From positions 684,013-707,804 of the forward strand of contig MU646324.1 of NCBI GenBank assembly GCA_026770585.1: a stretch of 23,792 nucleotides of DNA, read 5' to 3'. The stretch's first letter is position 1. Each line of letters begins with the position of its first letter. The stretch is from Baffinella frigidus. Taxonomy: Eukaryota > Cryptophyceae > Cryptomonadales > Baffinellaceae. This document shows, piece after piece, positions 62 to 22,900 of this stretch. Under the pieces are notes generated by a model that saw nothing but the letters and a program-made list of their open reading frames with translations, ran no database searches and had not been told where the DNA came from. Position numbers and translations under genes: made by a program.

Positions 62-113
62 CACCTGGATGCGGTTGTTGTCGCGGTCGGCGACGTAGAG
101 CATGCCCCCAGAG
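62..113 (-). repeat. 3'-edge echo of gene B exon 8
   Basis: Partial copy of the exon end ([17 protein letters not shown]) with CAG and donor GTGGGA, lying downstream of the real exon. It could be a decoy 5' splice site or an exon remnant. Confidence 0.7.
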
Positions 114-213
114 TCGCAAGAGGTTCACGACTCCCCTACAAGAGGGTCGCGACTCCCTTATAAGGGGGCCGCGACTCCCTTAGCAAGGGGCTTCAGGTGC
201 AGAGGCGAAGAAC

Positions 214-321
214 CTGGATGCGGTTGTTGTCGCGGTCGGCGACGTAAAGCATGCCCCCAGAGTCGCACGCGACCCCCGCAGGGTTGTTGAAGCAGCACGG
301 CCCCGTCCCGGCTTTTCCGAC
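214..321 (-). CDS. Gene B exon 8, NHL blade 3
   Basis: Acceptor CTGAAGCAG, 108 nt, phase 0/0. It encodes [20 protein letters not shown] and then [16 protein letters not shown], a complete NHL blade. The exon ends at a CAG followed by GTTCTT. If that donor is ignored, the frame reads VLRLCT and then a stop at 193-195, so this could also be the last exon. Continued splicing is favoured because the downstream echo (62-113) keeps the same CAG plus a better donor. Confidence 0.8.
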
Positions 322-444
322 CTGCTTCAGTTTTCGAGATTCAGGCCTAGTCCACGCGGTGCGTCTCCCATCGTGTACCGTATACATATATGTAGATATA
401 TGTAGATATAGATATATGTAGATATAGATATATGTAGATATAGA

Positions 445-501
<57 letters not shown>

Positions 502-579
502 GTCATTGAAGCAGCACGGCCCCGTCCCGGCTTTCCCAACCTGCTTCCACTTTCGAGATTCAGGCCTAGTCCACGCATC

Positions 580-612
<33 letters not shown>

Positions 613-3600
613 CATATATATATATATTATGTATATATATATATATTATATGTATATTATATATATATAATATATATATACACATATACGCGGATATATA
701 CATATATGTATGTATCCGCCCTTCCACGGCCCCGTCCCGGCTTTCCCAACCTGCTCCCGCTTTCGAGATTCAGGCCTAGTCCACGCATCGCCCAAATGAC
801 ATCGAATGTTTCCACAGTCCGCGTCGATTTTTGAAGAAGGAATCGAAGTTCTGGTACCACTTAGCAGCCACCGTTGCCCTTCCCCCCCGGATCTCTGGGG
901 GGGCATTTCAAGCCCATTACCCCGAAATGAATTTCAAGCCCATTACCCCGAAATGGCCCCGTCCCAGCTTTTCCAACCTGCTTCCACTTTCGAGATTCAG
1001 GCCCAATTCACGCATCATATATATATATACATATATGCGGATATATACATACATGTATAGATCCGCCCTTCCAAGTCACGTGTTTTCATCCGCATTGAGT
1101 TTTCACGAAGCATAGTGTGCGAGTAACGCTCCTGATCGAGAAGCTCTGGTACTAGGGCGATGTGCTATGTCCTTTAGGTCTTTTATTTTTTTTGGATACT
1201 CCCAACATAGGCGGACACCCCGCCCTTCCATTAAAAGGATCCGCAGGATGGCCCTGCTATGTCTCGAGCGACGGATGTTTGAGCGTGAACATGACCGAGA
1301 AGGGGGCATGCCGATGATCGCACCGTTCGCACAAGGACACGAGGGTTTAGGGTGTAGGGTGTAGGGTGTAGGGTGCAGGGTGTAGGGTGTAGGGTGTAGA
1401 GTGTATGGTGTATGGTGTATGGTGTAGGGTGTAGGGTGTAGGGTGTAGGGTGTAGGTTGTAGGGTTTAGAATGCACCGTGCGCACGAGGACGCCTTTTCC
1501 GTTGAAAAGCTGGATGCGGTTGCCTTGTTGTTCCACCACTGCGATCAACCCTGTTGGAGGAGGCTACGGCGTTACGATGACCACTCTTCTCGGATATCCG
1601 GGCGTAACGTCACCAGTTTCCAATAAAAATTGAAGAAAAGGCTCCAATTCCGGTTGAAAAGTGGTCCCTGTAGCCTTCTGAGCAGACCTGAACGCCGCAT
1701 CCTTCACGCACGACCGGTGCCTGGCACCGGTGACTTCGGGCTACGGTCCATCTAAACGATTATGGTACAAATCTTATCCATTCCTGGGGATCCTAACCGG
1801 AACCTCGCCCGGAAATCCGGGAGAAAAGGGCAACGGTGGCTGCTAAGTGGAGAAGACGCATCAACACAGGAGCAAACTCTGAAATCATACAGGGCTTTCA
1901 TAGAAGAATGTCACGAGGCAGGTCACGAGGACGGTCAAAAGAAAGTCACGAGGAAAGTCACAAGACAGTCACGAGGATGGCCACAAGACGGTCAAATCAC
2001 CAGCCGGCGTGACGCCGCAAGAGGCACGGGGCACACCGGCAGGAGTGGTCGTGACCGCAACAGGTTGCCGGAACTCCCCCGGCCCGCTGCCCTCCCCGCT
2101 GCCCTCCTGCCACCCAAACCAAACCAATTTAAATCAAATGTAAATCCCAAACCAATCCAATTTGAATCAAATGTAAACCCCGAACCAAACCAATTCAAAT
2201 CCCAAACCAAAAAAAATTAAATCATTATAACTGATCGACAGTGTTGGCTGCATACCTGCTGGAATGAGGTATGGAAGGCTCTCTCTAGAGAATCGAGGAC
2301 TGGTTGCAACCGGAGTGGGCGGGCCCCGTGGGCCCGCCTCGAGGCGATGCAACCCTCAGCCCTAAACCCCGAACCCCAAACCGTAACACCTAACACCTAA
2401 ACCCTAAATCCTAAATCCTAAACACCAAACCGTTCCGTGATGCATCAGGGTCGAGGAGAGAGGAGATGGTGCAACGTGTAGAGGAGAGAGGAGGGATTTT
2501 ACAGTGCACAGTGTGGGCTGGACTGCCCCGCACTCCACCACACCCAGCCACACAGTGGGCTTCGAAGGAAATCTCGACCGAAAATCCGGTCAATATATCG
2601 GTTGATACCATGTCTTTGTACCGAGCAATTCTGAATTAGTACCACGGAAGTAATTGGGCGGATCTGCGAAGCCCACTGTGTGGTTGAGGGGCAATGCCCA
2701 CTGACAAGGCTACACGGGACACTCTTGCCCGGATATCCGGGCAACACGTGACCATTCCCGGTACAATCCGAAGAAAAGGATCCAATTCCGGTCCCCTGTA
2801 GCCACGCCAGATTCTTGGAAGGAGTTGCCAAAAGTCAATTTCCCCTCAAGGCAGTGGTTTTCGAAGGTCAACAGACACATCCTTTGGTGCCTTAAAAAAT
2901 CAAGCCCCGCCTCGAATCTGGCGTGGAGTCTTGTGAGGGGCAGCAAACCTTGCCGATGGAGAGGTGAAGCGTGCCGTTTCCGTGCATCACCTGCGAAAGG
3001 CCATCGACTTCAATCGACAAATATATCCCTTAAGTGCCCATAGGGAGAATATTCCCCCTATGGGCAAACACACCTCCACTAACGTAACGAAATTCTCTGC
3101 CTTTTCCGTGCATCACCTGCGTGAGGCCATCGCATTTGACCTTCAAAACAATACTTCTTGTCGAAATGGGCTCCGCGCGGAATCGAGGTCAGGTCAGGAA
3201 CGAGCCGGATTTCTCAGAAAATGAACGTTTATGCTATCTTAGGCATGATTTTCATCCCAAAACAGCATCCCCCACTCAGAAGATGACACACAAAGGCAAA
3301 ACTTCCGGGAAAATGTTGGATCCGTGCCTGACCTGACCTCAACTTTTCCCGCGCGGAGCCCACTCCTAAACGCAACGACATTCGCGGCCACGTAAGCAAC
3401 TGTCCACACAGCGAACTACGAACGGATTTCGTGAACACTCCCCTAGTAAATAATCCATAGGGCCTACGGTAGGTAATACCGTAGGGACATAGGGAGGTTC
3501 TACGGATAAGGTAACGGGGAGTCGGGCATAAAATCCCTTTTTGAGCCGCTGTGGGGCGAGTGTGTGCTCCTCGGGCCAGAAGAAGGTGGTAACTCGGGGG

Positions 3601-6600
3601 ATGGCATCAGTTAAGGGTTGACGCCTAGAGACCAAACCAACACACACACACGCTCATCTCGAGGCTGAGAGTAATAAACAAGACGAAGAAGAAGGCGAAG
3701 AAGACGAAGACGACGAAGAAGAAGCAGAAGAAGCAAAGAATAATCTCCGTGGTCAACTGCAGCGGCACCAAAATGGGGTTGCTGGCCGCATGCCTCGACC
3801 CCCACACAAACTCCAAACCTCTACCTCCTACTCAAATCGACGCGCACCGTTGGCTCTGTCTCAGTCTATTTGGACTCACCTACCACACAGCAGACTTCGA
3901 AGGGATTTCGCGAATAAGCGATAAGACATAGGACCCTATGGGAAGGCAATGTCGTAGGGACATGGGGAGGGTTCCTACGGATAAGGTAACGGACAATGCC
4001 TTAAATTCGGCCAGAAAATCCCTTCGTAGCCCGCTGTGTGGTTGGGCTCAAGGCGCGCACCTGGACTCGGTTATTCAAGGTGTCGGCGACGACGAGGCGG
4101 CCTTCGAGGTCGACCGTGACCCCATACGGGAACTGGAAGTTGGTAGGCCCTGCCGAAACACCACACCACCGCGCCGCGTCACTGCCACCGTGGTTCACAA
4201 GCACCTGCATGCGCTTCCGGGTTCTCGCGATCTCGCGCACCGTGCTAATCCCCAGATGTCACGACCGTCACCCCGTACGGGAACTGCAAGTTGGTAGGCC
4301 CTGACAAAAACACCACCACGCGCCGAGTTACTCTCACAGAGGGCTTGTGCCGCACGACGCGTGCCGCATCACTCTACCACAACCGCGGTTCCGAAGCACC
4401 TGGTCTGCTGACCGTGACCCCGTGCGGGAACTGGAAGTTCGTCGGCCCTGCCGAAACACCACATCACCATCACAAATGAAGAGACTTTATTGAACGTATG
4501 AACTCACGCATGTTCAATGTGGCCCTGCCAAACCACCAGCATGCGCCGCGTTACTCTCACCCCTGCCACACCACCGCGCCACATCACTATCACCGCGGTT
4601 CACCGTACGGAAACTGGAAGTTCGTGGGGCCTGCCGAGGCGGGCTCGTTTTCAGGTTCATAGACGTTTGGATCACTCAACTCTAGGCTTAAGGGGCTTCC
4701 CCGTATGGGAATTGGAAGTTTGTAGGCCCTGCCAAAAACACCACCACGCGCCGCGTTACTTTCACAACAGTCTGGGGACAAGTCCCATATAGGCCAAAAA
4801 TCCCATAGAGCCGGACCGTGACCTCGTACGTGAACTGGAAGTTCGTCGGCCCTGCCGAAACACCACACCACCGCGCCGCGTCACTGCCACCGTGGGCTTG
4901 TGACGCACGCATGCCGCATCACACGCACCCCTGCCACACCACCGCGCCGTATGGGAACTGGAACTTGGTGGGCCCTGCCAGAACACCACTCGCCACATCA
5001 CTATCGCCCCTGCTACAACACCGCGCCGCATCACAGGTTTACTCAGTTAGAATCGGTTTTTCGATACCGAAAAGTGCGGTTGGTATGGTGGTTGAATGCC
5101 CGTGCAGATTTACTCTGTTGGTATGGTGGCTGAATACCCCTCTGGATGTTCTTGCCCGCGCAAGCTTTGGAGGGAGGGGTGGGGTGGGGCAGGGCCGACT
5201 AATCATGGCTCCCACCAGCCAATGGCTCCAACGTTCTGCCGAGGCGGGCCTATCCCTGGCGTGTTGAGGGGAGGCAACTAACCCGCGCCACGGCTGCCGA
5301 TAAGGTTGAGAGCGCCGTGTGCGGACCGTCTAACTTGACTCTCTTGCTACGGTGGATCAATACCCGTGCAGGTTTACTCTGTTGGTATGGTGGGTGAAGG
5401 GTGAAGGGGTGGACGATGCCTTTGGCGTTTCTGATAATATGGTGTGGGATGGTCCTTTTGATAATATAGTGTGGGATGGCCACCTGTGCCGTGGCTGCCG
5501 ATGGGGTGGAGAGGGCCGCATTTGCACAGTGCGCGTTTACTCTGTTGGTATGGTGGTTGAACACCCCTTGGTATGGTGGGTGAATAGTTGGTATGGTGAG
5601 TGGCATGGTGGGTGAACATGGTAGGTGAATACCCGTGGCGTGGCTGCCGATGGGGTGGAGAGGGCCTCCAACCTGGGCGTGATTCGTGTGTGGAGCACTC
5701 ATCGCAAGTCTTCGTGTATGCAGAGTGTTCAGTGTGAGGGCAGGCAGAGCGTACCCGTGCCGTGGCTGCCGATAGGGTGGAGAGGGCCGTGTGTGGACCG
5801 TGCAGGATTCTGGTAATATAGTGTGGGATGGTCCTTCTGATAATATAGTGTGGGATGGTTATTTTGATAGTATAGTGTGGGATGGTGATTGACAGGGTAC
5901 CTGTGCCGTGGCTGCCGATGGGGTGGAGAGGGCCTCCAGCCTGGGCGTGATTCGTGCGGGGAGCACTCATCGGAAGCGTGGGCAGCACTGATCGGAATAT
6001 AGTGTGGGATGGTCCTTCTGATAATATAGTGTGGAATGGTCCTTCTGATAATAAAGTGTGGGATGGTCCTTCTGATAATATAGTGTGGGATGGTCCTTCT
6101 GATAATATAGTGTGGGATGGTCACCCGTGCCGTGGCTGCCGATGGGGTGGAGAGGGCCGCGCACAGACCCGACCATTCGCGTCCGGAGCAGCTCCTCCGT
6201 CGACCCTGCCAATCACCATCCCATATTATATTATGAGGACCATCCCACACTATATTATGAGAAGGACCATCCCACACTATATTATCAGAAAGACCATCCC
6301 ACACTATATTATCAGAAACGTCTCGTTGTGGGAGTTTCACTGAGTCCACCCCATCACGCTCGCTAGCTCCACTCTGCCACGCCAAAGTGGTGGGTGCTAC
6401 ACGCACGCGTCCGCCGCTCAGAAGGAAATTGACTAGGATCCCGTCGAGCGAGAGAGAGTCAGGTCAGAGAGAGTCAAAGAGAGGGAGGGAGGGAGAGAGA
6501 GAGAGAGCGAAGGGAGAGAGAGAGAGAGAGAGTGCGCGAGCACGCGCGTGTGTCTCTTCGTGTGTTCTGCAGAAAACACGTGCCACACTATGAGAGAAGG

Positions 6601-6863
6601 GAGGCTTACCAGCGCCGAGAAGGCTGACGATTTGGTTCATCGCGTACTCCAGCTTCTGCATCCGCGTCTGCCAATCAACAAAGAAAGTGAGTTGTGGGTA
6701 ATCGGTTCCTTCTGCGTGCACCAGCCTGGGTCAGCAGCTTGGGGTTGGCACTAGCCAAGAGTTGCTGGCCGCACGACCATGGCCATGCCCATGACGCGCG
6801 CTCTACACTGCACTCACCAGCCACCATCTCTAAGAGTGGCTGCTGCTGAGGGGAGGGTTCCAT
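214..6863 (-). CDS. Gene B: NHL-repeat (beta-propeller) protein, 8 exons, left end probably open
   Basis: Exons read right to left: 6818-6863, 6610-6711, 6125-6205, 4061-4149, 2949-2990, 2037-2106, 1477-1550, 214-321. They total 612 nt (204 codons), all introns are GT-AG, and reading phase carries across all seven junctions. The predicted protein has a polar, Gln-rich start, a helical segment (residues about 28-50), then at least three NHL blades ending in NNRVQ, GNRIQ and NNRIQ about 47-51 residues apart. NHL repeats form propellers of about six blades that bind protein or RNA. Three blades suggest that the gene continues beyond the left edge or is a short relative. No RING or B-box is visible. 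Domain call: established family pattern. Gene model: inferred by hand, without transcript support. Confidence 0.75.
378..700. repeat. (TA)n microsatellite blocks in gene B intron 7
   Basis: Two long TA/TATATG tracts (about 378-500 and 578-700) separate the echoes of exon 8. They generate meaningless Tyr-Ile reading frames on both strands. Confidence 0.9.
505..1015 (-). repeat. 5'-edge echoes of gene B exon 8 (3 copies)
   Basis: Copies at about 505-578, 727-787 and 955-1015 carry the intron 3' end, the acceptor CAG and the first codons of the exon (VGKAGTGP in the best copy). All lie upstream of the real exon and are separated by TA tracts. Confidence 0.75.
1318..1475. repeat. 3'-edge echo of exon 7 and TGTAGGG-type heptamer array
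   Basis: A short copy of the exon 7 end (GTGCGAACG before a GTGCG donor) at 1318-1345 is followed by about 18 units of AGGGTGT with variants, ending at the donor of exon 7. Confidence 0.8.
1477..1550 (-). CDS. Gene B exon 7, NHL blade 2 end and blade 3 start
   Basis: Acceptor CTCCAACAG, donor GTGCAT, 74 nt, phase 1 in and 0 out. It encodes [15 protein letters not shown] and [16 protein letters not shown] closes blade 2. The usual Asp of VAD is replaced by Glu ([10 protein letters not shown]). The intron begins immediately with a TGTAGGG-type heptamer array, and a partial copy of the exon end with a donor lies at 1318-1345. Confidence 0.75.
1559..1680. repeat. Foldback repeat family with GGATATCCGGGC core, copy 1
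   Basis: Shares a GGATATCCGGGC core, a GAAGAAAAGG..CCAATTCCGGT segment and a terminal TGTAGCC(TT) with 2705-2804 and 22562-22656. The ends AGGCTAC and GTAGCCT are inverted, so this looks like a small non-autonomous transposable element. Confidence 0.55.
1905..1995. repeat. Degenerate 12-base tandem repeat
   Basis: Units of the type GTCACGAGGACG with AAGA substitutions, in the intron just downstream of gene B exon 6. Confidence 0.6.
2037..2106 (-). CDS. Gene B exon 6, NHL blade 2 first half
   Basis: Acceptor GGGTGGCAG, donor GTGTGC, 70 nt, phase 0 in and 1 out. It encodes [18 protein letters not shown] followed by TTTPA. The GSGPGEF..PVAV string is a textbook NHL strand. Just downstream in the intron is a degenerate 12-base tandem repeat (about 1905-1995). 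Confidence 0.75.
2110..2222. repeat. AATCAAAT-rich low-complexity tract
   Basis: Reiterated AACCAAATTTAAATCAAATG-like words. The same word type recurs at 14200-14515 (opposite orientation) and 18430-18480, which makes it a dispersed family instead of chance A/T richness. Confidence 0.5.
2352..2435. repeat. CCCTAAA-type heptamers, reversed orientation
   Basis: Telomere-like heptamers with the C-rich strand on +, opposite to almost all other blocks in the window. Confidence 0.75.
2548..2683. mobile_element. MITE-like foldback, family 1 (CCACACAG ends), short variant
   Basis: A 136-bp element with perfect 17-base inverted ends CCACACAGTGGGCTTCG. The interior has a second small palindrome around AATATATCGG. 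It shares its end with the longer copies at 3414, 3883 and 21938 but has a different interior. No transposase; a clear target duplication is not seen. Confidence 0.75.
2705..2804. repeat. Foldback repeat family with GGATATCCGGGC core, copy 2
   Basis: AAGGCTACACGGGAC at the left is inverted at the right as GTCCCCTGTAGCC. The core GCCCGGATATCCGGGC is itself a palindrome. It abuts the next foldback. Confidence 0.6.
2802..2926. mobile_element. Foldback element with CCACGCCAGATTC ends
   Basis: A 125-bp segment with 13-base inverted ends (CCACGCCAGATTC / GAATCTGGCGTGG). It ends 22 nt downstream of the donor of gene B exon 5. Confidence 0.65.
2949..2990 (-). CDS. Gene B exon 5, short NHL linker exon
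   Basis: A 42-nt exon, phase 0/0, acceptor TTTCGCAG and donor GTTTGC, encoding [14 protein letters not shown]. It joins the NRVQ end of exon 4 to the [12 protein letters not shown] start of exon 6, which restores the expected strand between blades. A second copy of the acceptor and first codons at about 3100-3130 is the upstream echo. That copy also has a possible donor (GTTAGT, 33-nt exon, phase 0/0), so alternative use is conceivable. Confidence 0.7.
3035..3066. repeat. Short hairpin
   Basis: TGCCCATAGGG and CCCTATGGGCA flank a 10-base loop in the intron upstream of gene B exon 5. Confidence 0.6.
3167..3362. mobile_element. Foldback element with TGGGCTCCGCGCGG ends
   Basis: A 196-bp element. 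The left end TGGGCTCCGCGCGG with GAGGTCAGGTCAGG inside is mirrored on the right by CCTGACCTGACCTC and CCGCGCGGAGCCCA. No coding capacity; MITE-like. Confidence 0.75.
3414..3554. mobile_element. MITE-like foldback, family 1, diverged copy
   Basis: The left end CCACACAGCGAACTACGAA and the interior TACCGTAGGGACATAGGG are shared with 3883-4041 and 21938-22098. The right end is degraded (GCTGTGGGG). Confidence 0.6.
3668..3740. repeat. GAA/GAC-rich trinucleotide tract
   Basis: Imperfect GAAGAC repeats; open on the minus strand as Phe/Leu-rich frames with no other support as coding. Confidence 0.8.
3883..4041. mobile_element. MITE-like foldback, family 1, copy next to gene B exon 4
   Basis: A 159-bp copy with ends CCACACAGCAGACTTCGAAGG and GCTGTGTGG. 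The interior has CCTACGGATAAGGTAACGG as in the other copies. The right end lies 19 nt into the intron after exon 4. Confidence 0.75.
4061..4149 (-). CDS. Gene B exon 4, NHL blade 1
   Basis: Acceptor TTTCGGCAG, donor GTGCGC, 89 nt, phase 1 in and 0 out. It encodes [20 protein letters not shown] then ADTLNNRVQ, with the NHL signature (P.GV.VD..G...VADT.NNRVQ) complete. Seven partial copies of the acceptor and exon start lie just upstream (4266-4985). A foldback element ends 19 nt downstream of the donor. Confidence 0.85.
4266..5030 (-). repeat. 5'-edge echoes of gene B exon 4 (seven)
   Basis: Copies near 4273, 4421, 4514, 4605, 4700, 4825 and 4950 contain the acceptor (TTCGGCAG or TTTGGCAG) and the exon start coding for [10 protein letters not shown], with variable intron sequence between. 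All lie upstream of the true exon. Each is a potential decoy acceptor. Confidence 0.85.
5037..5990. repeat. 3'-edge echoes of gene B exon 3 with TTGGTATGGTGG repeats
   Basis: Five copies of the exon 3 end (near 5283, 5482, 5630, 5750, 5900; plus strand CCGTGGCTGCCGATGGGG) alternate with TTTACTCTGTTGGTATGGTG repeats and single 27-base units. All lie downstream of exon 3. Several keep CACGG or CACAG followed by GTAC/GTGG. Confidence 0.75.
5995..6320. repeat. Large inverted repeat built of 27-bp units around gene B exon 3
   Basis: Left arm: about five tandem 27-base units (TCCTTCTGATAATATAGTGT plus GGGATGG) at 5995-6122. Right arm: about four inverted units at 6217-6320. The loop holds exon 3 (6125-6205). 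In the transcript the arms could pair and bring both splice sites of exon 3 together. Confidence 0.85.
6125..6205 (-). CDS. Gene B exon 3, lead-in to first NHL blade
   Basis: Acceptor ATTGGCAG, donor GTGACC, 81 nt, phase 1 in and 1 out. It encodes [16 protein letters not shown], then [10 protein letters not shown]. Joined to exon 4 it yields [17 protein letters not shown], the canonical lead-in of an NHL blade, which is the best evidence that the splice is right. The exon lies in the loop between the two arms of a large inverted repeat (5995-6320). Five copies of its 3' part lie downstream (5283-5930). Confidence 0.65.
6440..6535. repeat. GA-rich microsatellite
   Basis: (GA)n with GGGA interruptions in the intron downstream of gene B exon 2. 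Confidence 0.85.
6610..6711 (-). CDS. Gene B exon 2, helical segment
   Basis: The acceptor GCACGCAG opens the exon and the donor GTAAGC closes it (102 nt, phase 1 in and 1 out). It encodes a segment containing [19 protein letters not shown] and then NQIVSLLGA, an amphipathic helix that could be a short coiled coil ahead of the propeller. An internal CAG before ACGCGGATG could act as an alternative acceptor but would break phase with exon 1. Confidence 0.65.
6818..6863 (-). CDS. Gene B exon 1 (start codon)
   Basis: The ATG at 6863-6861 is the first Met after an in-frame stop that lies in the upstream TACCCTC heptamer array. The 15 codons read [15 protein letters not shown], ending with one base before a strong donor, GTGAGT. 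Phase matches exon 2. An acceptor-like CAG sits just upstream of the ATG, so a further 5' exon cannot be excluded. Confidence 0.6.
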
Positions 6864-6879
6864 CGTACGGCAGCTGTCC

Positions 6880-6950
6880 AAAAGCGACCTCTACCCTCTA
6901 CCCTCTACCCTCTACCCTCTACCCTCTACCCTCTGCCTTCTACCCTGCTA
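6880..6950. repeat. TACCCTC heptamer array
   Basis: About eight units of TACCCTC, a variant of the telomere-like heptamer, directly upstream of the gene B start codon. Confidence 0.85.
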
Positions 6951-7008
6951 CAATACCGTCTCGCCTCCCGACATGCCCCCGAAGACTACTGAGTGGCGTG
7001 CCAGGCCA

Positions 7009-7138
7009 GAGAGATTGGCAATTTATTGCCAAACAACCAGCGTCAGCGCCGCACATGCTACGTATTGTGCCACTACTGTACCCCGTGTCGGCTGCTCATA
7101 CGAGCATTCTCCGGATGGATTCCAACTCCACCTCCTAC
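7009..7138. repeat. 130-bp interspersed repeat, copy 1
   Basis: Starts with AGAGATTGGCAATTTATTGC (TTGGCAATttATTGCCAA is a palindrome) and ends in GGTGG on the other strand. The reverse complement occurs at 11253-11384 and, shorter, at 13183-13269, always with CAGCGTCAGCGCCGCACATG. A small non-autonomous element is likely. Confidence 0.7.
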
Positions 7139-7215
7139 AACGTGCCGGGCAAGGCAGTGCACGCAACTGATTTAAACCCGTGGCTCTCTCCTCTACCCGC
7201 ACGAGGCTGGCCCAT

Positions 7216-7359
7216 CACCTTTTTTAAAACCCGGGGAGCTGTACTAGTGAGGCACTGTGTAGTAATTTTCATGGGTTTGGACACGTGGCTACACGCTTTT
7301 CGTGTAGCCACGTGACCAAATCCCTAACAAACTCCTACAATCGATATTTAAAAAGGGTG
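7216..7359. mobile_element. MITE-like foldback, family 2 (CACCCTTTTTAAA ends, CACGTG hairpin), complete copy
   Basis: A 144-bp element with inverted ends CACCTTTTTTAAA and TTTAAAAAGGGTG, and a central hairpin ACGTGGCTACACG / CGTGTAGCCACGT. Relatives at 13326, 19064, 19387 and 19541. Confidence 0.75.
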
Positions 7360-7440: not shown

Positions 7441-7858
7441 GTGTCCCTTTAGGGTTATGACCAGGGTGTTTAGGGTGTTCAGAGTTTAGGGTTGGTACCA
7501 GGGTGTCCCTCCGCTCCTGCGAACAGTCTTCGACCTGGTTTAGGGTTTAGGGTTTAGAGATCAGGGATCAGGGTTTAGGGTTCAGGGTTTGGGGTTTAGT
7601 GTTTAGTGTTTAGTGTTTAGTGTTTAGGGTTTAGGGTTGAGTGTTTAGGCTTCAGGGGTTAGGGTTTAGGGGTCTTAGGGTTTAGGATTTAGGGTCCAGG
7701 GTTCAGGGTTTAGGGTTTAGAGTCTAGTGTCCAGGGTTTCGGGTTTATGGTTCAGGGTTCAGGGTGTAGGTTTAGGGTTTATGGTTCAGGCTTCAACCCA
7801 GTCGGAGACGCCGTTGGCGAGTGTTCAGTGTTCAGGGTGTAGGTTTAGGGTTTAGGGT
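7441..7858. repeat. TTTAGGG-type heptamer array
   Basis: Long run of TTTAGGG with TTCAGGG, TTTAGTG and TTTGGGG variants, G-rich on +. It holds the echo of the gene A terminal exon (7785-7828) and reaches the gene A stop codon. Confidence 0.9.
7785..7828 (-). repeat. 3'-edge echo of gene A exon A19, stop included
   Basis: Copy of the last codons (ANGVSDWVEA) ending in TGA where the real exon ends in TAA. It lies downstream within the heptamers. Confidence 0.75.
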
Positions 7859-7939
7859 TTAGGCTTCAACCCAGTCGGCGACGCCGTTGGCGATTTCGAC
7901 CAGGCGTAGCGGCATCTGCTGTAGCACCACCGCCGTCCC
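7859..7939 (-). CDS. Gene A exon A19, terminal exon with stop
   Basis: Acceptor GGTGGCAG, phase 0 in, 26 codons and a TAA. It encodes [20 protein letters not shown] then ADWVEA. The stop lies at the first base of a TTTAGGG-type array. Acceptor-side echoes are upstream at about 8035-8050 and 8110-8170. A donor-side (here stop-side) echo at 7785-7828 also keeps VSDWVEA and a stop (TGA). Unknown family. Confidence 0.75.
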   Translation of the reverse strand, partial: GTAVVLQQMPLRLVEIANGVADWVEA

Positions 7940-9816
7940 CTGCCACCAACCACTCAGAAAGCGTGAGCGCTCATGGCACGAGGGGCACGTGCAGGCGCTC
8001 GGTGGGCGGGGCCTGGGTCCCAACAAGCACCACCGCTGTCCCCTGCCGAAACGAGAGAGAGAGAGAGAGGGTTGCACTATTCAGGACGTGCAGCTGAGCG
8101 GGACCGCATAACAACAGCGACCAGGCGTAGCGGCATCTGTTGTAACACGCCAGCCGTCCCCTGCCATCACTCGGAAACTTTGAGCGTCTGAAAAAAGGGG
8201 CGCGTGCTACCGTCCGGTGGGTGGGGCCAGAGTCCCATAACTGTTGACTGATCAGAGGTCTGTGTCCTGGCAAGGAACCTGGCAAATTGCAAAACGCATT
8301 AGACCCACTGCGAGCGCCCAGTCTGGTCGTTTCCTGGATGAGGTGAACCCCATAATCTAGGGTCGTGAATGATTCGTAGTCCACCGAGTGGGCATGAACC
8401 TGTCGCACAAAGGCAAAGATGATGGTCTCTGTGAGATCCAGACGTTAACAACCCCACATGTAAATAGCCCCCTCTTGAATTCTCGAGTGGCAGTGAGGCT
8501 AGGCTGGAACCTGTCGCATGCAGGCAAAGATGGTCTCCGTGAGATTCACGCCAAGACTGGGCCCAGTGGGATATGGAATCGACAAGAGTGGGGGCAGTGG
8601 GGCTAGGTAGGAACGCAACGCCTCCTCCTCTCCTTGCACGGCATCGGACTCTTCCGCTCCTTGCATGACATCAACACGACGGGGCCCAAGTAGGAACTTG
8701 GCGGACGAAGGCGAAGATGATAGCCTCCGGTGAGATCGACGATGCTGCAGCCCACCCGGACCTCTCTCTCTCGCACTCTCTCGCTCGCTCTCTCTCTCTC
8801 GCTTTCGTTCGCTCGCTCTCTCCCTCTCTCTCTCTCGCTCTCTCTCTCTCGCTCTCTCTCTCTCGCTCTCTCTCTCGCTCTCTCTCTCTCTCACACACAC
8901 ACACCTGGCGCACGAAGGCGAAGATGATGGCCTCTGTGAGATCGACGTTGCTGCTTCGTAGTCCACCGAGTGGGTAGGAACCTCTCCTTGCATGGCACCG
9001 ACAAGACTGGGGGCAGTGGGGGCAGGCAGGAAACTGGGTCCGGTGGGGGTAGGTAGGAATCGATCTAAACCCTAAACCCTTAACCAGGAATCGAGAAGGC
9101 TGGGCGCTCGCAGTGGGGCTAGGTAGGAACGTGTCGCACGAAGGCGAATATGATGGCCTCGGTGAGATCGACGTTGCTGCATCGCACCCGGACCTCTCTG
9201 TCTCTCTGTCTCTCGCTCTCTGTCTCGCTCTCTCGCTCTCGCTCTCTCTCTCGCTCTCTCTTTCTCTCTCTCTCACACACCTGGCGCACGAAGGCGAAGA
9301 TGATGGCTTCGGTGAGATCGACGTTGCTGCATCGCACCCGGACCATGATGGGAGAGCTTTCCAGGTCCGTCTCGATGTGTACCTGTGTTGCCATCCAACG
9401 TGAGGGTTAGGGTTTAGGGGGTTTAGGGGGACGAGAAATGGACGTGATCACACCCGCTACTATTCTAAACAGATGTGCCAACGGCCAGCAGCACGACGCT
9501 TGTTGACGCTGTCAAGCACGCCCTGCGAGCGCTCAGCGGCGGACATTAGAGAGAAGCAGACGCAGTGCCTAGAGCCTCACAGGATAGGGCAGTCGTCCGC
9601 TGCAGAGCGGTGGCTCTGCTGCCCCAAGGGGGGGGCTGAGTCCTGAGGAACCGTTCTTGGAAAAGTAAAAGTCAACTGGGCGACAACTTTAGACTGCGTC
9701 CCAAAAAAGAGTGGCACCGGCCAGCAGCACGACTGCTCTGGAGGCGCTCTGAGCCCCGTCGAATACGTCCGCCTCGGTACAAGAAAGTATTTTCCTGATC
9801 AAATCAACGAAATGTA

Positions 9817-12800: not shown

Positions 12801-14798
12801 GGATAGTTCCTGCCAGGGGGGGACATTTGGGGTCATTTCGGGTACGGGTACGTGCTATGCCCCTACGCGGCGGGCTACCGTAGGGCCCTACGGAACGCGC
12901 GTTGGTACCCGTACCCGTCAGTCACGGGCTTGACGTCAGTCACGGGCGTGACGCTCGTCTAGCCAATGGTGCACTTTGAAACGAAACCCGCTCAGAGATG
13001 GTACGCCGCTTGGAGGGCATGCTTTTGCGTCACCCACCTGACTCCGGAGATAGGGGTTAGAGGCGTGTGGCTCGAGGGTAGAGAGAGAGAGAGATAGATA
13101 GAGAGAGAGAGAGAGGGTGGCTTGGCGGAAAGAACTAGCCGCTGGTGCTCTTTGATAACCACGCTGTTGCACACGAGAACCTACGACACGGGGTACGGTA
13201 AGTAGCACAATGCGTCAGGCATGTGCGGCGCTGACGCTGCGTGTTTGGCAATGAATTACCAATCTCTCTCACCCACCTGGTGGAGTGCGTTGCTGCGTCA
13301 GCCCACTCGAGGCTGGAAGAGGGAGTATTTTAAATGTAGGGCTGTTAAAGTTGTACCAGTCACGGGCGGGTTTGGTCACGTAGCCGCTCGGATTCGAGCG
13401 GCTACGTGACCAAATGCAACTAATTATGTGAAAATTACCACACACCCTTTCAAAATTACTACATCCCTTCACTTGTAAAGGAACCCCTGTTTTAAAATAG
13501 TCACATTTGCAGCCTCGAGTGGGTCAAGGGCTTGACGCTCGTCTAGCCAATGGTGCGCTTTGAAACGGATTCCGCTCCAAGATTTCAGAGAAAAGAAAGC
13601 GTCGTGGCACGCCGCTTGGAGTGAATGTTTTTGCGTCACCTACCTAAGGTGCAGGGTTTAGGGTTTAGGGGTTAGGGTTTCGGGTTTCGGGTTTCGGGTT
13701 CAGGGTTTCGGGTTTCGGGTTTCAGATTTCAGATTTCAGGTTTCGGGTTCCGGGTTTTGGGATGACGATTTAGGGTTGAAGGTGTAGGGTTTACCGTTCC
13801 GCAAGCTGATCAGGCGGGAGGGTCAGCTCCTTGCAGACAATATCGAGGTTCAGGGTTTAGGGTTATGAGTTTGGGGTATAGGGTTCAGGGTTTTGGGTTA
13901 AGGGTTAAGGGTTAAGGGCTTAGGGCTTAGGGTGTATGGTTTAGGTGAGCCAACAAGCCTGTGGCTTGCTGGCTTGGTTGAGGGTTGAGGGTCTAGAGTG
14001 TACCGTTCCGCAAGCTGATCAGGCGGGAGGGTGAGCTGAGGGTTGAGGGTTTAGAGTTTAGAGTTTAGAGTTTAGAGTTTAGGGATGAGGATTTAGGGTT
14101 TACGGTGTAGGGTTCACCGTTCCGCAAGCTGATCAGGCGGGAGGGTGAGATCCTTGCAGACAATGTCCAGAATCCGCGCTTTCAACGGCCGCAGCACCTG
14201 CGCAATTCGATTTGATTTGGTTTAAATCAGCACCTGCGAATTCAATTTGATTTGGTTCGTGACATTTGATTGGATTTGGTCTGTGGCGTTTGATTTGATT
14301 CGGTTCGTGACTTGCGTGCCCAGATCCTGTGTGAGCGCATCTGATCAGGCGGGAGGGTGAGCTCCTTGCAGACAATGTCGAGAATCCGCGCTTTCAACGG
14401 CCGCAGCACCTGCGCATTCGATTTGATTCGGTTGGAGCACCTGTATTTGATTTGATTCGCTTTGTGACTTTTAATTGGATTCGATTCGTGAATTTTGATT
14501 CGGTTTGGTTCGTGACTTGCGGGCCCAGATCCTGTCGTATCGCCTCCGTGTCCGCGAGGTGGCTCACTATCTACCAGCTGAGGCCAACGCCTAAGGGGGG
14601 GGGGGCATGATGGAAATGTTGGGGGGGGGGGCATGATGAAAATGTTGGGGGGGTAGGGGAGCGGTAGGATTGGGAGGCAGGTGCGTACCTCGCGGCACGC
14701 CTCCTCGTAGAGAACGCTGACACCCTCTTTCAGAAGCTCTCCTCTCCCTCCCCCCTCTCTCCCCCTGCCCTCCCTCCTCCCTCTCTCCCACCCCTCCC

Positions 14799-14843
<45 letters not shown>

Positions 14844-16853
14844 CCTTCCTCTCTCTCTCTCGCTGGGGGCGACAAGCCTGCCGGCAGGGCCACTAACCTC
14901 GCGGCACGCCTCTTCGTAGAGAGCGCTGACACCCTCCTTGAACAGTGACTGCTTGACTCAAATATTGACGGGGTTGTACCACAACCCACGAATGTCAACT
15001 TGAAAAAAGTCTGGTAACCCTACTGATGCAGGGCTAGGATGCTTGGGGTGCGTACCTCGCGGCACGCCTCTTCGTAGAGAGCGCTGACACCCTCCTTGAG
15101 CAGCGACTGCGCGTGCGCGACCGCTAGACGCCTCACCTTGTTCGACGTTGCTAGCGCCTGCCACCCCGTCACCAGAATAGTCAGGCAACCCGACTGCGGT
15201 AGAGCAGGAGTTACTAGCAGGGTTTAGCCTCCAGATATTAGCAACATGAGGTCACTATCAGTCACGCGACTGCTAGACGCCGCACCTTGTTCGACGTTGC
15301 CAGCGCCTGCCACCCGTCGCACTCACACTCACACTCACACCCGCACTCACACTCACACCCACACCCACACTCACACTCACACTCACACCCACACTCACAC
15401 ACACACTCACACCCGCACTCACACCCACACCCACACACCGTACCACCATCAACGTCGGAAACACCTTGTTCGACGTTGCTAGCGCCTGTTGCCAGTCACG
15501 GGTAAGTTAGCTGGTATCAGTACATGTCACTAAAGCTTGTGCATGTACGCAGATGCGAGCCGCCGCACCTTGTTCGATGTTGCTAGCGCCTGCCACCCGT
15601 CGCACTCACGCTCACGATCACACCCACACCCGCACCCACACTCAGACCCACACTCAGACCCACACTCAGACCCGCACTCACACTCACACACCGCACCACT
15701 ATCAACGTCCGAAACACCTTGTTCGACGTTGCTAGCGCCTGCCACCCGTCGCACTCACACTCACACTCACACCCACACTCACACTCACACCCACACCCGC
15801 ACTCACACTCACACTCACACTCACACTCACACCCACACCCACACCCACACCCACACCCACACCCACACCCGCACTCACACCCACACACCGCACCACCATC
15901 AACGTCCGAAACACCTTGTTTGACGTGGCCAGCGACTGCCACCCGTCACCAGAATAGTCAGGCAACCCGACTGCGGCAGAGCGAGAGTTACTAGCAAGGT
16001 TTAGCCTCTAGATGTTAGCAACATGAGGTCACTATCAGACACGCGACTGCTAGCCGCCGCACCTTGTTCGACGTTGCTAGCGCCTACTCCCAGTCACGGG
16101 TAAGTTGGTTGGTATCAGTACAGGTCTCTAAAGCCTGTGCGTGTACGCAGATGCAAGCCGCCGCACCTTGTTTGACGTTGCTACCGCCTGCCCACCCGTT
16201 GCCTTTTATTAGATATAGCCAATCTGGTAGGGCGTGGCCAAAGCGAAACTTCCAACTTACACAACACCATCAACCTGCTTTCCGTCGCGAACAACCCCAC
16301 AACCCCACAACCCCACAACCCCACAACCCCGCAACCCACACCACCATCAACGTCCGAAGGTACCTCGCCTACCTTCAACGATCACGCGCCAGTGCATCAA
16401 TCCGCGCGGATTCTAGAACAGGTGCTTGGGCTACAAGGTCATGCCATGAGGTGATGAACAACTTTGTCTTTATTTTCATCCGGGCCGAATCCCTCATTTC
16501 TCAAGGTGCCCTGATGAACAACGGTTTGAGAAGGGCGCTCGTCCCCGGTTGAGGGTCTGCCGAAACCCTCAACCGGGAAGTTCGTGGCAGGCTGGCGTGT
16601 GGTGTCCCTGACCAAAACATTGTTGCGAGGTCGTTGCAGGGGTTGGTTGCGGTTGGTATGTTGGGGTTGGTCCCCCCAACGTACCAACCGCAACCAGATA
16701 AACCTCAAACTACCTACCTGGGTTGGGGTAATAAAGAAGGGTCGGCTGTGGTCTGACCGGTTCGTGGCACGCGGGCAGCCCGAGCCTTGGTTGACCGCGA
16801 TCCTTGGTTCACCAAGGATCGCGCCTCCAAAGGTCGTGTCATGGTGGGGGCCA

Positions 16854-16912
<59 letters not shown>

Positions 16913-19900
16913 GGTTGCAGGTTGCAGGTTGGATTGAGAGGTCGTTGGGTTTAGGGTTGGGGAGGAGACCGGTTCGTGGCAGGCGGGCAGCCCGAGACGT
17001 GCGTTGACCAGGCTCGCGCGATGCAACGCATCCTGCCAACAAATCGTCCACCGTCAACGATCACACAGCTGACTGCAAACAGAATTTCGTCAATAAGCCC
17101 AAGCCTGGCGTTGACCAGGCTTGCGCGATGCGACGTATCCTGCCACCAACCAACGGTCCGTCTTCCCGTCAACAACGATAAAGAGATTACTCGAAGCTTT
17201 GCGCGTCTCATCAACCACGCGCATCGTTCCACGCATCCTGGCAACACTACATTGTGCGCATCCTGCCAACAACCAACGGTCCGTCTTCCCGTCAAACACA
17301 CAGCGGACTGCGAAGAGATTTTCGTGAATAACCGATACGCAAGCCTGGCGTTGACCACGCTTGCGCGATGCAGTGCATCCTGCCAACAATCGTTCCAACT
17401 CCGTCCACTTTGGAGAATGGTTCCAACTCTGTCAACTTTGCAAGTTTGGAGCAGTTTCTCTGTCCGTCAGCAATCAACGATTCCTCCTCCCGTAAACAAT
17501 CAACGATTCCTCCTCCTTCCAACAATCAACGCATCGTTCCTCCTCCCGTGAGGCGGGAGCGCTTTTGGCAATTATTTCCTCTGGTGGAAATAATTGCCAA
17601 AAGTGGAAATAATTGCCAAAAGAGGAAACTTGACCCTCAAGAGAGGGTCAAGAGAGGGGGGATGCGGACGGTCTTGAGTCCCCACGAGCACTTGAGGTTG
17701 TTCAAAAACTATCGGTTGATCTTCGCCATACGACCCTACGGTAGGCAACCCGTAGAGACATAGGGGGGTTCCTACGGAGACGGTCACGGAAAGGTGGCCT
17801 GATGTGGGCCGTGTCGGTTGATCTTCGACACACGACCCTACGGTATGCAACCCGTAGGGACGTAGGGGGGTTCCTACGGATAAGGTAACGGAAACGTGGC
17901 CCGATTTGGGCCGGAAATCCCTTCGTATCCCGCTGTGTGGCGAGGGGGGGGGGGGGCTTTAGCATGCGGATGGTCTTGGGCGTGTGTTCGAGAGGGGGGG
18001 CATATGCCAGAGAGCATTCGAGATTGGGGACCTATTCGAGAGTGTATTCGAGAGTGAAAACTTTCAACAGTGTATTCGAGAGAGAGAGAGGACCTATTCA
18101 AGAGTGTATTCGAGAGAGTGTCTAGAGAGAGTATTCGAGAGGGGGGTACCTTGAGCATTCGTACGGTCTTGGGTCCCCACGAGCACTTGAGGTTGTTCAA
18201 AAACTTCTCTTGATCTTCGACACACGACCCTACGGTATGCAACCCGTAGGGACATAGGGGGGTTCCTACGGATAAAATAACGGAAGCGTGGCCCGATTTG
18301 GGCCGGAAATCCCTTCGTATCCCGCTGTGTGGCGAGAGGGGGGGGGCCTTGAGCATTCGGACGGTCTTGGGTCCCCAGGAGCACTTGAGGTTGTTCAGAA
18401 ACTGTCGGTTGATCTTCGCGATCTGCCACCCGACATCAAATTGAATCAAATCAACTTAAACCCTCAAAATCAAATCAATTTAAATCCACACCTCCCGAGT
18501 GCAGGTCGGCAGATATGTATTGTAGATTTCAGCTTAGTGCGGAATTTTGGGAGATCAGGTCGGGACATCGGGGAACGAAAAAAGTGAAAATGAATCGAAA
18601 AGGTGTATTTTACGGGTGGGGGTCGCGATCTTGTCATCAAATCCATGCGTAAGATAGCATAAAACTTTAGATGGACGTGAAGATGATCGCGATTTTTTCG
18701 ATTTTCTCGATCCCCCGACCCGGATTGAATTCCGCGCTAAGCCGAAATCTACAATACCACACAGCGCGACACCATGTCACGCCAGGTCGCAAGTGGGAGT
18801 TTCAGAACGCGACGTTTCGATGTGCGGTACTACATGAGTGTGCGCTCCCCCGTGAAACGCAACTCCTCGTCCTGACCACGTCCGGGATTTCACCTGACTC
18901 TGAAAAAAACCTGTGACTTGTATCTCAAATTCCCACTTGTGGCCTGGCGTAGTCAGGCACTGGTCGAAAAAAAAACAGGCTCTCCAACAAAGCCGACTCA
19001 CAGGGTGTGGGGTGTACCAGAGCCCCGCAGCCAGCGCGCCCCGTCGAGACCAAGTCCGGCATCTTATTAAATGTCGATTGTAGGCGTTGTGTACCGAGTC
19101 GGTCACGTGTCCCCCCGCAAAGCGAGCCGACACGTGACCAAACACATGAAAAATGCTACACTACCTCACCTTGTACAGTTCCCCGGGTTTTAAAAAGGGT
19201 GTGTGCTCCGCCGCGTGTGGAGTGTGGGGTGTACCAGCGCCCCGCAGCCAGCGCGCCCCGTCGAGACCAGGTCCGGCATCTGCCACGGGTATGAGGGTTT
19301 AGTGTTTAGCTTTGAGGGTTTGGGATTCTGCGCGGTTTGGGATTCTGCGCGAGGGTTTAGTGTTTACCCACACAAGGCTACCCAGACACCCTTTTTAAAT
19401 GTTGGTTTTAGCGGTTTGTACGGAGCTGGTCATGTGTCTCTCCGAAAAGCGGGCCAAACATAGCGCGCCCCGTCGAGACCAGGTCCGGCATCTGCCACGC
19501 GTATGAGGCTTTAGTGTTTACCCACACAAGGCTACCCAGACACCCTTTTTAAATGTTGTTTTTATCGGTTAAATGTTGGTTTTGGCGGTTTGTACGGAGT
19601 TGGTCACGTGTCTCCCCGAAAAGCGGGCCGACACGTGACCTGTCGAGACCAGGTCCGGCATCTGCCACGCGTATGAGGGTTTAGTGTTGAGCTATTTAGT
19701 TTCGAGCACTTGAGGTCCTACATCCTAAAGCATCGCACCTCCACGCCGAACCACTCTGCTTCCGCAGCAGCGGCAAGTTTAGGGTTTTGGGGTTAGGGTC
19801 CAGTGTTTAGGATTCATAAGGTGGGTTTTGGGTTTTGGGATTTGGGATTTGGGATTTGGGTTTTGGGTTTTGGGTTTGGGCACCTCAGCGCTGAACCACT

Positions 19901-22900
19901 CTGCTTCAGCAGCGGCCTGCTGCCGAAGGCGACTGTTCTGAGACCACACGGTGGACTATTTTTGCCCCCCCCCCCAAAAAAATTTACAGGTAAATTTCAT
20001 GGGGGGGTGTCACAATTTACCTGAGAAATTTCGGGGGGGGCAAAATATCTACGCGCCCAAATTTAACTGGGACAGAGCTAGGTAGCGCACCTCAGCGCGG
20101 AACCACTCTGCTTCAGCCGCGGCTTGTTGTCGAAGGCGGGCGAAGGTTGACTGTTGGGAGTCGGCGGCTTTCGGAGGCGCGTTCATGCACGCCACCTGAT
20201 GAATGGATAATTCGAAAATTTATAAATTCTGAATGGATGATTCGAAAAATTATAAATTTTCGGCGACTTAGTCCAGCCCGAAAAAATCAGCGCTGGATCG
20301 AGTGTGTGCAACATTCAATCGAATGTGACCAGCGGGCGAAGGTCGACTGTTGGGAGTCGGCGGCTTTCGAGGCGTGTTCATGCACGCCACCTGATAAATG
20401 GATGATTCGGAAAATTATATTTAATTCATATATTGTCTCGCGGTTCAGCGCCGAATCGAGCATGTGCCAAATTCAATCAAGTTTGACCAAATTCGATCAC
20501 ATTTGACTCTTTGGAGCAGGAGCGTCCGTTGTCGCAGAAATTTCCTTGAGAGAGGGTCGGCTGAGTGTTACCTCGCCACGTTGCAACAACTGTCTCTGCA
20601 TAACCCATATGTTGTGCGTGTGTCAACAACTTGAAAAACAATCGTGCATCATGCGTGCTACGGGGGAGGGCTAGTTGCGTTCTTGGAGCCATTTCCCCCC
20701 ATATCCTGCGGTTACTTTTCCGTCAAATTTAATTATTTATGGGCATTTCAGGCAACTTTTGCCGATTTCAAGGGAAAATAATAGATGGACGCAGGGCGTA
20801 AAATGACATGTAGCTCTCCCGCGAGGTGTGGTGCGTGTGTCATTTCGGAGCATCGCGGACTGAGAAGAGGAGGCGTGAGGGTTGCCGTGGGGATTGAGAG
20901 ACACCAAGCCGTGAGGGTTGAGAGAGAGGGGGAGGCACCCAGCCGTGAGGGTTGAGGGAGACTGCGCCGACGTCGTCGGGGGGATGGTTCTGGCAAGGGG
21001 GGCATCAGGTTTTACGGTTCAGGGGTCAGGGGTTAGGGTTTAGGCTTGGGTTCAGGGGTTAGGGTTTAGGCTAGGGTTCAGGGTTCAGGGTTCAGGGTTC
21101 AGGGTTTAGGGGTTAGGGGTTAGGGGTTAGGGGTTTAGGGTTTAGGGTTTAGGGGTTCCACTCCGTCGTTTGGGGCCTAGGGTTTAGGGGTTAGGGTTTA
21201 GGCCCCAAACGACGGGGTGGCAACCAAACGGCCGTGTGGCCGCATCAGCTGAGTTGATCCTGAAATCCGGGGCGCTGTCACGGGCATTCTCGAGGGTGGT
21301 TTGGTGTCGTGACAGCCACTCGTCTGAGGCCGCAGGCTGCCACCAACCCTCACTGGAGGACTACATCGTCGATTTTAAAACCTCGATTTCACCTGGCAGA
21401 CCCCCTTTTTCGGGGGGTCTGCCCAGGTGATTTGAGATGTCAAAATCGACGATTTGGTCCTCCCGTGAGGGTTGGTGGTTCCGACTGACATGTATTCTTC
21501 GGAAACCTCCTCCATTGTAGGGTTGCACTGGGGGAATGTATTAATCAAAGCCTTTCTGCCAACGAAAATTTCTACACAACTACAAGGTGGGCCACGAACC
21601 TTTCATCAAAAGTCAACTTACCTGAAGAAAATTAACGTTACGGATTTTTCTAACGCAAATTAGTCACAAAACACCCCGGGATCCGGGGTCAACGAACCCC
21701 TGCTAGCCCACCGAGTGGTTGGATCATACTAGTAGTAGTAAAGCATTAGTGTAGTAAAGTTCGTTGGCAGGAAAGGCTTCAATTAATACATTTTTTGAGA
21801 TGATGGTAGTTACAATGCGGTACTGCACTGAGGAAGGTCCTCGGGCGCCTACACAAGACGCAGTCCTAGGTGCCCTAGGGCCTATCTCCGTCCAATAACG
21901 TATGCTAATCGCCCTGGAATCGAGGCGTTCCCCGATGCCACACAGCGGGCTACGAAGGGATTTTCGGCCCATGTTGAGCCGACTTTCCGTTACCTTATCT
22001 GAAGGAACCCCCCTATGTCCCTACGGGTTGCCTACCGTAGGGTCGTAGGTCTCATCGCTTAAGGGTTATTCGAAATCCCTTCGAAGTTCGCTGTGTGGCT
22101 CTAGGAACGGACCTGGAATCGTTTGCGGAAGTTGTCGCGCTTGCGGCCAAGAGGAACTTCGTCGCAAATCGTGAACACGCCTACCTGCTTGCGGGAGTAA
22201 TGCGTCAGGTCAGTGCGGGGACATTCCGTCAGGTGAGAGCATCGCCATATGGTGCAAGTGAAGAGCGCGAATAAGCACCATACGGTGCAAGTGTTGAGAA
22301 GGGAAAAGCCGTTGTGCGTCAGGGAAGAGCATCAACACAACACGGTGGACTACGGACCTGCCCACCAGCCCTCACAAAAAGCTCAAATCCAGAAACGTCC
22401 TTCTATTTTCTGGTACAATAAAGCTTCATTGTACGCTTTAAAGCTTTATAGTAATCAAGCTTTATAGTAAAGCTGGATTCCGGCGTGCAAGTACCTGCTT
22501 GCTGAAGTCCACTCAAACTTCCTTTGTCATCTCAGCCCTTTGAGCCCTTTGCTGAGATGACCTCTGGCCCCTGGATATGGGGTAACGTGCCATTTCCGAT
22601 ATAAAATTTGAGGAAAAGGCTCCCATTCCGGTTCAAACGTGGTCCATGTAGCCTTATGTGTGGAATGTGTCAGGTGAGAGCATCGCCATATGGTGCAAGT
22701 GGTGAGAGCAAAAAAGCCTTGGACTAGGCAATAGATCGCCGCCGGCACAGCAGCATGGCGCCACCAGGTCCAAGTCGTGTCATGTGATTATCTAGGCTCT
22801 AAGGGCGCCTAAGGATGCAAGGTTATGAGGACGCCAAAGTAGATTCACTTAGGCCTCGGCACGCGGGGCGTGTAGCGTTCACATTGCAGAATGGGGAACT

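Follow-up and report, generated by a model that had tools for sequence, protein, structure and literature searches.

Polarized partial copies of exon edges in the introns of a cryptophyte gene

Why would most exons of a gene be surrounded by incomplete copies of their own splice junctions? The question is raised by a 23,792-nucleotide stretch of DNA from Baffinella frigidus, which was analysed in full and is called the window here; it lies on C22, a contig of a 382-Mb assembly. An earlier note on this DNA, made from the sequence, had reported that extra copies of exon edges, called echoes below, lie near most of the modelled exons. Copies of an acceptor with the start of its exon were said to lie upstream of the exon, and copies of an exon end with its donor downstream. 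Repeated tandem duplication, with one breakpoint in the exon and the other in the intron, was offered as the cause. We found that the exon-edge echoes at this locus are real, in introns that are already rich in short local duplications.

The exons found in the window lie on the minus strand. A model built from splice sites and reading frame contained 20 exons and a single frame open over 498 codons. The 498-aa composite, used as a query, found the deposited protein P0001 (592 aa; named hypothetical protein T484DRAFT_2585168 by its source, from the cryptophyte Baffinella frigidus), and the remaining matches were NHL proteins with low coverage. On the minus strand of the window, P0001 has 17 exact stretches, which account for 426 of its 592 residues. 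Each of them is a whole exon and not an echo. The N-terminus of P0001, MLK, equals the final codons of an earlier exon at 18348-18422, and beyond residue 429 no match was found within the window. The protein contains NHL repeats, and its N-terminal part is unrecognised. NHL alone scored above the curated cut-off in a Pfam search, and a PDB search gave nothing with one query and otherwise two weak matches (E 0.098 and 1.8). The peptides of the first exon guesses had no homologs at E≤10, and scans for viral-contig patterns gave no match. The earlier note had labelled exons as belonging to two genes, A and B; those taken as A and those taken as B sit in one deposited protein, P0001, and the division is given up here.

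A set of 24 exons had been built before P0001 was known and was partly found through its echoes. P0001 confirmed 15 of these and added 7499-7534 and 2037-2106. Of the other nine, three are kept as probable upstream exons (Table 1), and six segments outside P0001 (23327-23392, 22113-22184, 16373-16412, 14517-14577, 10211-10268 and 9718-9748) do not enter the final exon set. The main counts were made with the resulting 17 exons because the choice of exons is then independent of the echoes.

Echoes were scanned for with the basic local alignment search tool (BLAST) at a score of at least 36, with at least 8 nt on the exon side and at least 2 nt on the intron side, within 3 kb and on the same strand. 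The 17 exons gave 28 acceptor-edge copies, 27 upstream and 1 downstream, and 19 donor-edge copies, 0 upstream and 19 downstream. Thus, 46 of the 47 same-strand copies within 3 kb lay on the expected side. One same-strand copy was found beyond 3 kb, and the scan found no inverted exon-edge copy anywhere in the window. Echoes were present at 12 of the 17 exons and at 18 of the 34 junctions, and at all 18 junctions the majority was on the expected side (2^-18 = 4e-6). Both the claim that most exons carry edge echoes and the claim of polarity, therefore, held on an exon set chosen without them. When at least 8 nt were required on both sides, the counts upstream and downstream were 22/1 for acceptors and 0/9 for donors, and at a score of 56 they were 20/1 and 0/8. 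The 24-exon set gave 25/1 and 0/13 under strict conditions and 30/2 and 0/25 under relaxed ones. The splice dinucleotide was kept in every counted echo (AG in 26/26 and GT in 18/18), a result that the filter favours. Some individual counts of the earlier note could also be compared, with its exon labels matched to coordinates by inference. The seven upstream echoes of its gene B exon 4 (taken as e15 in Table 1) and the five downstream echoes of its A18 (taken as e6) were recovered exactly. For its A10 (taken as e11), the two downstream copies were found, and two of the stated seven upstream copies appeared at the scan threshold.

The polarity follows from simple geometry. A duplication that runs from the intron into the exon necessarily leaves the truncated copy upstream of the whole exon, and the mirror case leaves it downstream. 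Any duplication that has one end inside an exon and is tolerated would, therefore, be polarised; the polarity points to duplication and to no specific mechanism, and it makes random insertion of copies less likely.

The background of local duplication was measured at random non-exon points. In the 24-exon analysis, 36% of such points had a local direct copy, and 24% did outside the echoes. With each repeat family weighted once, these values were 18% and 12%, compared with 17 of 39 junctions (44%) under the same mask filter. The enrichment at exon edges over the intron background was about 2.4-3.7-fold in this set, in which exon constraint keeps echoes recognisable for longer and some exons were found through their echoes. 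Local direct copies at random points were unpolarised (817 up vs 873 down over 2268 points) and commoner than inverted copies, which numbered 0.15 per point. Four loci on other contigs had local direct copies at 25-47% of points.

We next considered what the echoes are. The exon part common to echo and exon is 17-69 nt long, and one edge recurs in up to seven copies within one intron. None of the echoes is used by the deposited protein. A hint by eye that donor echoes could be complete mini-exons (AG at half of their starts, mostly in the right phase) was dropped after a scripted test, in which 21 of 44 inner echo edges had a splice motif and 21.1 were expected from the local null. Paralogous templates as a source of the echoes also found no support: among the best candidates scored in the searchable part of the 382-Mb assembly, which is possibly incomplete, all 16 matches of P0001 at E≤0.001 lay within the window, as did all 8 assembly matches of exon e15 DNA, with none outside.

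The differences between exons and their echoes were then counted by codon position, using echoes with at least 15 ungapped exon nt and dropping shorter ones. Positions 1, 2, and 3 differed at 21/551, 15/549, and 85/544 sites, respectively. There were 85 synonymous differences over about 404 sites and 35 nonsynonymous differences over about 1215 sites, a raw ratio of nonsynonymous to synonymous divergence (dN/dS) of 0.137. For a neutral echo facing a conserved exon, about 138 nonsynonymous differences would be expected, and the floor of dN/dS is about 0.5. Snapshots of an evolving exon followed by neutral decay were rejected on this comparison. Since the echoes are related by copying, the counts are not independent events and families were taken as the units; the third-position excess was seen in 16 of 17 families, and a bootstrap over families put the ratio of position 3 to positions 1 and 2 at 3.0-8.0. 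The excess held in CpG, other G/C, and A/T sites, and mutation context as its cause was rejected because it was present in all three. For comparison, 143 intron-intron repeat pairs, with the phase chosen afterwards, gave a ratio of 2.7 vs 4.8 for echoes at fixed phase.

The 21 echoes whose intron side was homologous over at least 15 nt allow the two sides of the junction to be compared. Differences amounted to 95/842 (11%) in the intron, 51/261 (20%) at third positions, and 15/534 (2.8%) at positions 1 and 2, where the neutral expectation is at least about 30 differences. The same alignments had 16 gap columns in the intron and 0 in the exon. Seven of the eight changes that separate the working exon from all its echoes are at third positions, as are 11 of the 11 changes common to several echoes. 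So the third-position bias belongs partly to the lineage of the working exon and partly to the echoes.

The sequence between copies, or filler, was compared with what a tandem duplication predicts. Plain tandem duplications that run through the intron do exist, with a 73-bp unit at 7797/7870, a 177-bp unit at 10881/11058, and others at 14311/14516 and 14197/14409. The filler test used 52 adjacent copy pairs (the 24-exon set minus one doubtful exon and minus one pair at the window edge) and a threshold of P<0.02. Filler homologous anywhere to its predicted tandem partner was found in 26 of the 52 pairs, and many echo copies thus appear to be separated by unrelated filler. In the array upstream of e15, the fillers recur in the order a, b, c, d~c, e~a, f~c, g~b (a~e, 91% over 74 nt; b~g, 93% over 125 nt; c~d~f). 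This recurrence out of order fits exchange between echoes. Simple repeats made up 19% of fillers on average vs 13% of the window. Degenerate TTTAGGG-like heptamer arrays were seen at 1342-1469, 7537-7790, 11899-12343 (with a run of N at 12225-12279), 13653-14114, 16854-16931, 21007-21154, and 22995-23130. Insertion of telomeric repeats at break sites has reportedly been observed; here, several of the TTTAGGG-like arrays directly adjoin echo breakpoints, and there are many other fillers.

On the intron side, homology often ends abruptly. Among 18 donor echoes of confirmed exons, the common intron sequence was 2 nt (GT only) in 9, though exon parts reach 98% identity, and then 3, 6, 9, and 26-87 nt in the rest; in 26 acceptor echoes it ranged from 2 to 119 nt. 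In the wider exon set, echo-to-echo identity was 0.86-0.88 over 20 nt on the exon side, a figure favoured because the search detects echoes through their exon part. For the 20 intron nt next to the junction it was 0.52 for donors and 0.67 for acceptors, and unrelated junctions gave 0.47-0.48. A 24-bp sequence occurs at 35-58 and 14866-14889 (96% identical), in intron stretches after two different donor echoes.

A similar structure was found at L006, a 3.1-kb locus on contig C1159 that was selected solely on account of a TA repeat. An exon there joins a second exon in phase, and the peptide of the second appears leucine-rich-repeat-like when read by eye. Five acceptor-edge copies match a 15-nt word. 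With the last taken as the working copy, four lie upstream and 0 downstream within the stretch; one is shifted, one is truncated, and two span the exon, one without GT and one that is a complete exon bearing both AG and GT. Differences at codon positions 1, 2, and 3 were 0/56, 0/56, and 8/53. The two whole copies in L006:928-2513 have silent differences in codons 6-9, and over their final 38 nt they match the working copy exactly. L006 hints, weakly, that similar structures occur outside the window and does not give their frequency.

To account for these observations, we propose that introns grow by repeated short local duplications that would have one end in the exon and the other at or beyond the splice site, presumably during break repair. 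An event that breaks an exon would survive selection only if the duplicated piece ran from the break across the splice dinucleotide; one exon would then stay whole, and the surplus partial edge would become intron together with its filler. Duplications that broke an exon without spanning its splice site would destroy it and be lost. With survival limited in this way, acceptor echoes would be left upstream and donor echoes downstream. The filler would sometimes be duplicated intron itself, as in a plain tandem, and often other sequence, among it simple repeats and TTTAGGG-like ones. Echoes could then offer short stretches of homology at which further unequal exchange would shuffle the filler units. 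Because the differences are concentrated at silent sites, the copies were probably different already at the time of the event. One possible source is a copy from another, diverged allele through inter-homolog exchange, with each allele shaped by selection; another is that error-prone synthesis produced the working edge, which selection then filtered. Repeated local duplication across splice sites, with copies different from birth and fillers reshuffled, is the best account we can give, and we hold it with slightly better than even confidence.

The allelic source can be put more specifically. Echo pairs could be born diverged if illegitimate inter-homolog exchange joined two alleles of an exon edge in a hyperdiverse alga, of which the assembly shows one. 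Joining of two alleles would also explain why intron flanks are unrelated from the third nucleotide on. In the part of the source used here, the nuclear genome of a related cryptophyte, Guillardia theta, is estimated to be haploid (PMC4007541). If Baffinella were haploid too, an assembly would show one allele. We regard this specific version as possible and, on balance, doubtful.

Several observations count against local duplication with difference at birth. Random break positions leave the pile-up of intron edges exactly at GT unexplained, and tandem homology was present in the filler half next to the exon-side breakpoint in 12 of the 52 adjacent pairs. The 23 echoes with short intron homology differed at 27/621 of positions 1 and 2 (4.3%) and 48/312 of third positions (15%), with 4 exon gap columns. 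Changes private to one echo were mildly biased (15, 13, and 31 by codon position; 31/59 third), as were those private to inner echoes (7, 7, and 16; 16/30 third, P = 0.019), and these private changes suggest some neutral decay in echoes. Three probable upstream exons repeated the codon bias weakly (7/105, 1/105, and 11/104; P = 0.024). As for L006, it was chosen among four loci for 3-periodic repeats, 1 of 54 repeat pairs reaching P<0.05, and none were found in L003, L004, and L008. Its polarity is partly circular since the copy beside the next exon was assumed to be the working one, and two of the copies cover the exon from end to end, one with GT.

The mechanism of the earlier note, plain tandem duplication of the junction segment, would require the surplus copy to decay neutrally and the intron parts to be fast-changing simple repeats that have become unrecognisable. 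Its geometry yields the polarity, though the polarity is forced in any case, and the intact tandem units, the intron-side matches that some echoes keep over at least 26 nt, the predominance of direct over inverted copies, and the mild bias of echo-private changes all agree with it. The unrelated filler in many pairs and the coding-like differences do not: the raw dN/dS of 0.137 lies well under the neutral floor, exon parts are free of the gaps found in the intron parts of the same 21 pairs, and homology ends at GT in half of the donor echoes despite nearly identical exon parts. We consider plain tandem duplication with neutral decay unlikely. Another possible explanation is that the echoes are tandem exons that function, or did recently, under selection with introns free to diverge. 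Tandem duplication of mutually exclusive exons gives neighbouring exon copies with coding-type divergence, and the silent-site bias, the conserved splice dinucleotides, the end of homology at the exon border, and the one upstream L006 copy with both AG and GT would be in keeping with this. In contrast to such exons, the echoes in the window are partial and have no excess of a second splice site, which copies with an acceptor and a donor each would have. They are also absent from P0001, they encode largely the residues that the exon already supplies, which would leave little for an alternative exon to add, and their polarity would be left unexplained. This makes functional tandem exons distinctly unlikely.

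Insertion of introner-like elements or transposons at exon edges, with echoes as target-site duplications, would explain why copies flank unrelated filler and why filler units recur, although the recurrence is within one array. The common exon parts are much longer than the 3-9 bp target duplications that the consulted part of one report gives for some introner families (PMC9860276), and we judge such insertion very improbable. Copies inserted from paralogous genes would produce silent-site divergence and foreign intron flanks together; they are, however, extremely improbable, since no other P0001 locus was found at E≤0.001 among the best candidates scored in the possibly incomplete assembly, and random insertion would lack polarity.

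Table 1. Exons of the P0001 gene in the window and the positions of their echoes
Feature	Coordinates	Strand	Basis	Echoes and remarks
Three probable upstream exons, same frame	20091-20195, 19235-19279, 18348-18422	-	Open frame through 498 codons; outside P0001 except MLK	Acceptor: 3 up, 1 down (near-whole copy at 19062); donor: 5 down
e17, whole	16970..17032	-	Exact match to P0001 residues 4-24	Acceptor upstream 17139, 17379; donor downstream 16757
e15 acceptor-echo array	15260..16202	-		Junctions 15306, 15485, 15589, 15738, 15935, 16083, 16187; three filler types between, recurring out of order
e15, whole (taken as gene B exon 4)	15056..15157	-	In P0001 stretch 25-59	7 acceptor upstream, 2 donor downstream
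e15 donor echoes, two	14680..14952	-		Junctions 14897, 14688
e14, whole	14118..14197	-	P0001	Acceptor 14409; donor 14003, 13794, adjoining TTTAGGG-like repeats
e12b, whole	12345..12398	-	P0001	Acceptor upstream 12488, 13037, 13643; downstream 11897, the sole exception in the 17-exon set
e12	12036..12090	-	P0001	None detectable
e11, whole (taken as A10)	11059..11172	-	P0001	Acceptor 11522, about 11622; donor 10881, 10690 (177-bp tandem unit)
e10	10038..10109	-	P0001	None detectable
e9, whole	9281..9382	-	P0001	Donor 9130, 8904, 8697, 8399, adjoining (AG)n and gttcctac fillers
e7, whole	7871..7939	-	P0001	Acceptor 8042, 8160; donor 7797 (73-bp tandem unit, TTTAGGG-like repeat)
e7c (VEDCSQERRDTL)	7499..7534	-	P0001	One donor-side copy, 62 nt downstream
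e6b	6610..6667	-	P0001	None detectable
e6, whole (taken as A18)	6125..6205	-	P0001	Donor 5900, 5754, 5632, 5483, 5282
e4, NHL repeat, whole	4061..4149	-	P0001	Acceptor 4300, 4447, 4630, 4728, 4851, 4974
e2, whole	2949..2990	-	P0001	Acceptor 3116
e2b	2037..2106	-	P0001	None detectable
e1b	1477..1550	-	P0001	None detectable
e1, NHL repeat, whole	214..321	-	P0001	Acceptor 540, 750, 977 (540 directly adjoins (AT)n); donor 64

Other repeats were seen in the window. A family resembling miniature inverted-repeat transposable elements, about 110-165 bp long with inverted ends CACACAGCGG... / ...CCGCTGTGTG, occurs in both orientations at 3404-3560, 3883-4041, 17712-17944, 18210-18336, and 21937-22098 (73-94% identical). 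A second, hairpin-like family around ACGTGACCAAA is present in both orientations at 7197-7355, 19063-19220, 19368-19451, and 19569-19640 (75-85% identical), and a dispersed repeat of 86-132 bp, also in both orientations, at 7008-7138, 11253-11384, and 13184-13269 (86-92% identical). A 27-bp satellite (AATATAGTGTGGGATGGTCCTTCTGAT) occurs in both orientations at 5429-6317, around the donor echoes of e6.

Related events have been described elsewhere. In the exonic-AGGT model, tandem duplication and reuse of splice sites make a new intron; the tandem duplication and reuse are alike here, but a natural junction was copied and P0001 has no new intron position. The closest published case consulted is in the potato RdRp gene, where a tandem genomic duplication across an intron-exon boundary made a new intron in a single event (Ma et al. 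2016, PMC4974935). As in the window, the duplicated piece described in the excerpt of that paper comprises a portion of an intron, the acceptor, and a portion of an exon, and splice signals are inherited. The potato case is one event with a new intron, whereas here existing introns are involved at 18 of 34 junctions, often with several echoes, filler, and silent-site divergence. Direct repeats at intron/exon borders have also been interpreted as marks that break repair leaves behind (Rogers and Bendich 2025, PMC11782384). In the portion of the paper drawn on here, they are 4-30 bp long (mean 11.4), and the echoes, while also direct repeats at such borders, copy 17-69 nt of exon edge as often as seven times per intron. 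Novel intron positions in Drosophila, ascribed to tandem duplication or sliding, likewise involve coding sequence close to splice sites that was duplicated regionally in tandem; as far as the excerpted text goes, they are new positions and not copies of existing exon edges in long introns (PMC2891723). Among the matches listed from the literature searched, with most subscription journals outside its scope, no prior description of repeated, polarised exon-edge echoes along a gene was found.

Intron lengthening and new splice sites are usually studied through isolated, fortunate events. In this gene, more than half of the junctions are scarred, which allows the breakpoints, the fillers, and the ends that are tolerated to be counted. 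Annotation programs will come across decoy splice sites at such loci that are backed by real coding sequence. If the silent-site pattern is genome-wide, copies would differ at birth, and the growth of introns would be tied to allelic recombination or to repair that is prone to error. If the inter-allelic reading is true, the introns of this alga would store fossils of past alleles, and exon edges would act as recombination nodes that drive intron growth.

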